DNA of 38,563 nucleotides from an uncultured bacterium (GTDB lineage: Bacteria > Armatimonadota > UBA5829): positions 1 to 38,563 of the forward strand of contig CALJES010000010.1 of the NCBI GenBank assembly GCA_938074205.1, given 5' to 3'. Shown in pieces: positions 222-849 of this stretch. The position numbers and the translations under genes were made by a program. The notes under the pieces are model-generated. The model saw only the letters and a list, made by a program, of their open reading frames with translations, was not told the origin of the DNA and ran no database searches. The stretch's first letter is position 1; each line of letters opens with the position of its first letter.

Positions 222-252
222 CGAAGGGCCGACGTCCCGATGGGAGCTATTA

Positions 253-300
253 CTCTCCGTTCCGACCGGCAGTCGGAACCGAAAAACGACCGAGGGGAGG
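253..300 (+). promoter_or_regulatory. candidate S6:S18 ribosomal leader hairpin sequestering the rpsF Shine-Dalgarno
   Basis: An inner stem of 8 bp, GTTCCGAC (259-266) with GTCGGAAC (272-279), closes a CGGCA loop. An outer stem pairs CTCTCC (253-258) with GGGGAG (294-299), which is the core of the rpsF Shine-Dalgarno. The 3' side between the stems is an unpaired 14-nt segment (280-293) containing CCG. Published S6:S18 autoregulatory leaders are described as a stem with an internal loop carrying a conserved CCG. The geometry fits that class, but the assignment is from pattern only; no covariance check was possible. Confidence 0.55.
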
Positions 301-309
301 TGTACACAC

Positions 310-849
310 ATTAATACGCGCACGTACGAGACTTTCTACATTGTAGACCCCAACCTTAGCGACCAACAGGTCGAGGAGATCATCTCCAAATACTCTGCAA
401 TCATCAGCGAGCAAGGGGGCAAGGTAACCGCCGCCGGCAAGTGGGATAAGCGTCGACTTGCTTACGAGATCAAACACTACCGCGAAGGCATCTACATCCT
501 GATGTTTTTCGAGGGGACTCCTGCTGTTGCCAGAGAGCTCAACCGTGTTATGCGGATCAGCGATGACATAATTCGACACGCGATTTATCGGGTTGAGCCG
601 AAACACGTTGACACTACCCGTATTGAGAAACCCTCTGAGCCGCCACTGGAGGAGCTTACGCCTGAAGATATGGAAGCAGAGCAAGCAGAAGCGTTTGAGG
701 AGGAAACTGCAGTCGAACAGATAGACGAATTGCAAGAGGACAGTGAAGCTGCATCCGAAGAAGAAACAACGGAGTCTGCTGAGGTGACCGAGCCGATTTC
801 TGAAGAGGTCGTTGAAGCAGCAAAGGAAACCATCGAAAAAGAAAGCTAA
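310..849 (+). CDS. rpsF: 30S ribosomal protein bS6, apparent AUU start
   Basis: This is ribosomal protein bS6, which binds 16S rRNA together with bS18 in the small-subunit platform. Conserved features are RTYETFYIVDPNL near the N-terminus, GKWDKRRLAYEIKHYREGIY in the middle and ISDDIIRHAIYR near residue 85. The frame contains no ATG, GTG or TTG between the in-frame stop at 211-213 and the ATG at 502, and starting at 502 would delete about 64 conserved residues. The family N-terminus falls on an ATT codon at 310, nine bases after a strong GGGGAGG (294-300), so AUU is the likely initiator. The last ~75 residues form a Glu-rich acidic tail beyond the core fold. It is first in an operon with ssb and rpsR. 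A sequencing error changing ATG to ATT is the main alternative. Confidence 0.93.
   Translation: MNTRTYETFYIVDPNLSDQQVEEIISKYSAIISEQGGKVTAAGKWDKRRLAYEIKHYREGIYILMFFEGTPAVARELNRVMRISDDIIRHAIYRVEPKHVDTTRIEKPSEPPLEELTPEDMEAEQAEAFEEETAVEQIDELQEDSEAASEEETTESAEVTEPISEEVVEAAKETIEKES

Follow-up and report, generated by a model that had tools for sequence, protein, structure and literature searches.

The gene for ribosomal protein bS6 (rpsF) in the window, by which we mean the whole 38,563-nucleotide stretch of DNA that was analysed, part of the genome of an uncultured Armatimonadota bacterium, raises the question of where its translation begins and what that start means for its control. The rpsF reading frame is open from a TGA at 211-213 to position 849. 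When this frame was read codon by codon, no in-frame ATG, GTG or TTG was found between the TGA and an ATG at 502, in agreement with the preliminary description of this DNA. We propose, with a probability of roughly 60%, that rpsF has a genuine weak start codon that is rescued by an extended Shine-Dalgarno sequence, and that this weak start lowers rpsF expression or sensitises it under repression by S6:S18, probably being read by IF3.

The rpsF start codon in the window

ATG 502 is the first canonical codon in the frame, and starting there would drop 64 residues, much of the S6 domain. The features that bear on the start are as follows.

173-178, + strand: possible -35 element (TTGCTT) of an rpsF promoter, 17 nt before the -10 element; consensus match only
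196-201, + strand: possible -10 element (TATAAT) of the rpsF promoter; consensus match only
294-300, + strand: Shine-Dalgarno sequence GGGGAGG, extended as GGAGGTG to 302; also the 3' strand of leader helix H1; from sequence
310-312, + strand: proposed rpsF start codon ATT, 9 nt after the Shine-Dalgarno sequence
310-849, + strand: rpsF (bS6), 179 amino acids if started at ATT; PF01250 (105.6 bits, 3.4e-30) and orthologues

The preliminary description had placed ATT 310 nine bases past GGGGAGG, and this holds, with the Shine-Dalgarno sequence at 294-300 and the frame identified as bS6 by PF01250. Its statement that the conserved bS6 N-terminus begins exactly at ATT 310 has to be corrected: the conserved methionine of the family (MRxYE) falls at ACG 316, two codons downstream of ATT, indicating that the window protein has a two-residue N-terminal extension, and ATT is marked as the start by its Shine-Dalgarno spacing instead. 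Started at ATT, the protein would have the N-terminal peptide (M)NTRTYETFYIVDPNLSDQQ. As predictions from sequence, both the identification of ATT 310 as the sole plausible start of rpsF and the conclusion that translation from this near-cognate, non-canonical AUU is genuine are well supported. One tRNA-Met with a CAT anticodon and an initiator-type anticodon arm was detected in the window's genome, so an altered initiator need not be assumed.

A gene caller restricted to ATG, GTG and TTG would give a truncated bS6 of 115 amino acids at 502-849.

rpsF starts in the window's order

Of the 19 genomes of the window's order, 17 yielded an rpsF gene. In 14 of these 17, the in-frame codon at a spacing of 8-9 nt from GGAGG is non-canonical: ATT in the window, ATC in its nearest relative (G002) and in G018, ATA in G015, G016 and G017, and ACG in G001 and in seven genomes of genera g2, g3, g4 and g6. 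Instead of its ACG, G001 might use an ATC that has a spacing of 5 nt and lines up with the G002 ATC. ATG serves as the rpsF start in genus g5 only (three genomes). Conservation of ATT in relatives, to which the preliminary description had looked as a check, is therefore absent from the order as far as ATT itself is concerned; what is conserved there is the avoidance of AUG, GUG and UUG, and ATT recurs in a second family, f22. The reading of AUU as a start gains from the same comparison, in that relatives carry AUC, AUA or ACG at this position and the derived clade never carries AUG.

This codon lies anywhere from 1 to 4 codons away from the conserved Arg but always 8-9 nt from the Shine-Dalgarno sequence, as expected if it is a start codon and unexpected if it is an internal one. 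In f3 (G016 and G018), an in-frame TGA directly follows GGAGG and leaves GTT, GCR or ATA/ATC as possible starts, so that no start can lie further upstream and a non-canonical one has to be used. Of 69 tabulated genomes, 20 have no canonical start in the interval from GGAGG to the conserved Arg, and every one of the 20 has a near-cognate codon at 8-9 nt; by this count, the constant spacing is more than chance.

In a tree of eleven ribosomal-operon genes, for which E. coli was the sole outgroup, g5 branches as the sister group of the remaining members of the order. Since g5 has ATG, the simplest history reconstructed from these genomes is a single change in the order that none of the 14 sampled genomes has reversed. 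The 17 order genomes share ancestry, and the independent events are therefore few, namely one in the order and a second in f22. Most of the surveyed genomes, all from the one phylum, are fragmented assemblies.

A second lineage with ATT

Family f22, also in this phylum, has ATT 9 nt after GGAGG in six of eight genomes and five of six genera (G048, G071, G102, G119, G124 and G134), with CGC-GAY-TAC-GAG following immediately. The sixth genus (G061 and G096) has an insertion and an ATG. One of the ATT genomes, G124, is a single-contig assembly. A pattern search for AUH before RxYE in 291 genomes gave many chance matches elsewhere; among the matches listed, those assigned to rpsF coordinates came from f22 and the window's order only, and in some order genomes the pattern picked out an ATH codon other than the proposed start, as in G010, whose start is ATG. 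On the sequences at hand, f22 acquired its non-canonical rpsF start independently of the window's order.

At f22 loci L181-L186, CCTCCT or CTTCCC lies directly 5' of ATT, between GGAGG and ATT. These motifs could pair with AGGAGG or GGAAGG of the Shine-Dalgarno region, forming a small predicted hairpin and possibly an additional layer of control.

Control genes and alternative explanations

Two genes downstream of rpsF served as controls.

919-1350, + strand: ssb, canonical ATG start; from sequence
1410-1685, + strand: rpsR (bS18, the partner of bS6 in the repressor), canonical ATG start; from sequence

The start of ssb is canonical at all 17 loci of the order, and that of rpsR is canonical at the loci that could be judged. 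Some rpsR starts appeared to be missing where alignments began at residue 21 or later, and two such cases checked by eye have ATG. Among the S10-spc-alpha genes of twelve genomes of the order, all 258 testable starts are canonical; eleven apparently missing rpsN starts were an artefact of alignment to the long E. coli S14 only from residue 59 on. At the infC loci that were read (L052-L068 and L217-L223), the start is AUA, AUC or AUU in the window's order and AUA or AUC in f22, indicating that the order tolerates such starts.

These controls bear on the possibility that the rpsF start is real and has no regulatory role, the codon drifting nearly neutrally among near-cognates behind a very strong extended Shine-Dalgarno sequence. 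Such drift is consistent with the different codons found inside the order (ATT, ATC, ATA and ACG), but we consider it unlikely. AUG is one mutation away, yet it recurs in none of the 14 genomes after the change, the ribosomal-protein-operon starts remain canonical without exception, and a second lineage has ATT in five of its six genera. Moreover, tested non-canonical starts with extended Shine-Dalgarno sequences lose about 90% of their output in poor medium (PMC13009471), which is hardly neutral.

A further alternative concerns the genomes with 8-nt spacing, which might start at an in-frame GTG inside GGAGGTG, leaving non-canonical starts in only part of the order. Of the 14 order genomes with a non-canonical codon, 10 have this GTG in frame (the ACG and f2 genomes), and it is invariant across the ACG group. 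It is, however, part of the extended Shine-Dalgarno sequence GGAGGTGA, and as a start it would be preceded, at about 4 nt, by no more than a weak GAGG. ACC-ACG is invariant shortly after GGAGGTG in seven ACG-group genomes (L005-L009, L011 and L014), whereas the codon immediately after GTG varies, and we therefore regard a GTG start as improbable. The window, G002, G016, G018 and the six f22 genomes with ATT either lack this GTG or have it in another frame, and the explanation is inapplicable to the window.

In the same gene of the same seven genomes, none of 39 amino-acid-invariant degenerate codons is nucleotide-invariant. The frozen ACC-ACG is a candidate conserved bacterial ACG start codon; initiation at ACG is expected to be very weak.

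Termination-reinitiation from an upstream open reading frame of 24 codons in the window (ATG 240 to TAA 312-314), whose TAA overlaps ATT by one base, could in principle drive rpsF initiation. We think this very improbable, because the nearest relative, G002, lacks a corresponding frame and reads CACATCACA at this place, and because ATG 240 has no clear Shine-Dalgarno sequence of its own; the small frame at 240-314 is probably due to chance. A sequencing error or pseudogene might be suspected from the fact that the relatives with named records are metagenome-assembled, but is scarcely credible when the same pattern occurs in 20 separate assemblies from two lineages, one assembly being a single contig, and the frame is long and intact and the protein conserved.

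The rpsF leader

Upstream of the proposed start, the predicted leader comprises the following elements.

253-258, + strand: 5' strand of helix H1 (CTCTCC), pairing with 294-299; 97.8% of cells paired over 45 leaders, two pairs with changes on both sides
259-279, + strand: H2 hairpin, GTTCCGAC-CGGCA-GTCGGAAC; changes on both sides in four of five core pairs
280-293, + strand: asymmetric loop containing CCG (290-292), corresponding to the part of rpsF leaders that S6:S18 contacts; GACCGA/GTCCGA is conserved across the phylum

The earlier proposals that CTCTCC pairs with the Shine-Dalgarno sequence and that CCG is exposed in an asymmetric loop are both borne out, as 253-258 pairs with GGGGAG at 294-299, compensatory changes are present in both stems, and neither C of the loop CCG varies among 45 phylum leaders. 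Over both helices in these 45 leaders, 6 of 11 pairs have changes on both sides and 97.6% of cells are paired; for slid structures, paired cells fall to 52-80%. The covariation score is 0.393 versus 0.255 for shuffled leaders, and none of 500 shuffles reached 0.393. Folding of the single leader sequence gave a z of -0.15 and is uninformative, so that covariation was needed. On this comparative evidence, the predicted leader helices covary and H1 hides the Shine-Dalgarno sequence. At the beginning of the window, rpsF, ssb and rpsR lie on the same strand with the rpsF leader upstream, constituting an operon with rpsR.

Proposed mechanism

In the favoured reading, a weak start beneath the leader, the extended Shine-Dalgarno sequence GGGGAGGUG would recruit the 30S subunit, fMet-tRNA would mispair with the AUU of rpsF, and IF3 would reject many of the AUU complexes, making rpsF initiation slow and inefficient. 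Slow commitment would result in low bS6 output and would also give bS6:bS18 time to close the leader helix, so that autogenous repression would become more sensitive. The level of IF3 may be a second input to rpsF, as it is for infC. Since repression by excess IF3 offers no obviously useful feedback for a 30S protein, we prefer a role as sensitiser over pure sensing of IF3.

Many genomes of the phylum have an S6:S18-type leader with ATG or GTG starts, indicating that the leader exists without the weak codon. The non-canonical starts in two lineages suggest a deliberately weak start beneath an S6:S18-type hairpin, and we infer that this start depends on IF3 and has a regulatory purpose. We advance more tentatively the wider proposal that two Armatimonadota lineages independently placed rpsF under infC-like, IF3-gated near-cognate control atop S6:S18 feedback, one of them with a conserved ACG.

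Only a handful of genes in bacteria are known to have conserved AUU, AUC or AUA starts, and a ribosomal-protein gene would be added to them, twice in one phylum. A literature search of incomplete coverage returned no paper connecting rpsF with an AUU start. The proposal makes testable a weak start as part of autogenous control, as well as a tie between IF3 level and 30S protein supply. In such genomes, gene callers limited to ATG, GTG and TTG would remove a large part of bS6.

Comparison with known systems

The E. coli rpsF leader is controlled by S6:S18 (Babina et al. 2015, PMC4647458). The window leader resembles it in having a helix (H1) that includes the Shine-Dalgarno sequence, an H2 hairpin, a CCG in an asymmetric loop, and an rpsF-ssb/priB-rpsR operon. 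Judged by eye, the E. coli leader is laid out like the phylum leaders and carries ATCCGTAAGGAG at the place of the CCG loop. A search of the window and its leader against Rfam gave no leader-family match, and the S6:S18 leader model RF02893, on which the E. coli leader scores 110 bits, did not match either at E<=10. Likewise, our own covariance model (R1) did not match E. coli, so that architecture and position are all that link the two leaders. Running a covariance model for S6:S18 leaders, as had been suggested for this locus, thus gave a divided answer: RF02893 has no match in the window, and the stems do covary across the 45 phylum leaders. The predicted window leader has the S6:S18-leader architecture but is not a member of the RF02893 model. 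Unlike the window rpsF, E. coli rpsF starts with AUG.

The infC gene, which encodes IF3 and uses AUU or AUA in IF3 autocontrol, is like the window rpsF in having a near-cognate AUH after a Shine-Dalgarno sequence. It differs in that rpsF is a ribosomal-protein gene for which we infer IF3 control, and the feedback logic would differ. E. coli rpsT (S20) reportedly starts with UUG and is autoregulated, with leader and start codon both said to matter in work by Parsons and colleagues in 1988. It would share with the window rpsF a weak start on an autoregulated ribosomal-protein gene, but UUG is a canonical alternative start and not a near-cognate of the IF3 type.

Extended Shine-Dalgarno sequences accompany the non-canonical starts of ccpN (AUA), cvfC1 (AUU) and infC (AUA), and in poor medium the tested starts of this type reached about 10% of the output obtained with AUG (PMC13009471). 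Like rpsF, ccpN and cvfC1 of Staphylococcus (ccpN also in Bacillus) combine a conserved non-canonical start with an extended Shine-Dalgarno sequence, with reduced output; unlike rpsF, they are not ribosomal-protein genes, and PMC13009471 describes no autogenous leader. Streptomyces sigR has a GTC start with AGGAGGTG and is repressed by IF3, as shown by mutants (PMC5472188). It resembles rpsF in its lineage-conserved non-canonical start behind this sequence and differs in its codon (GTC), in encoding a sigma factor and in having an IF3 effect known from mutants. The window rpsF belongs with these non-canonical starts: its start is other than AUG, GUG or UUG, and the feature is conserved in 14/17 members of the order and 6/8 of f22.
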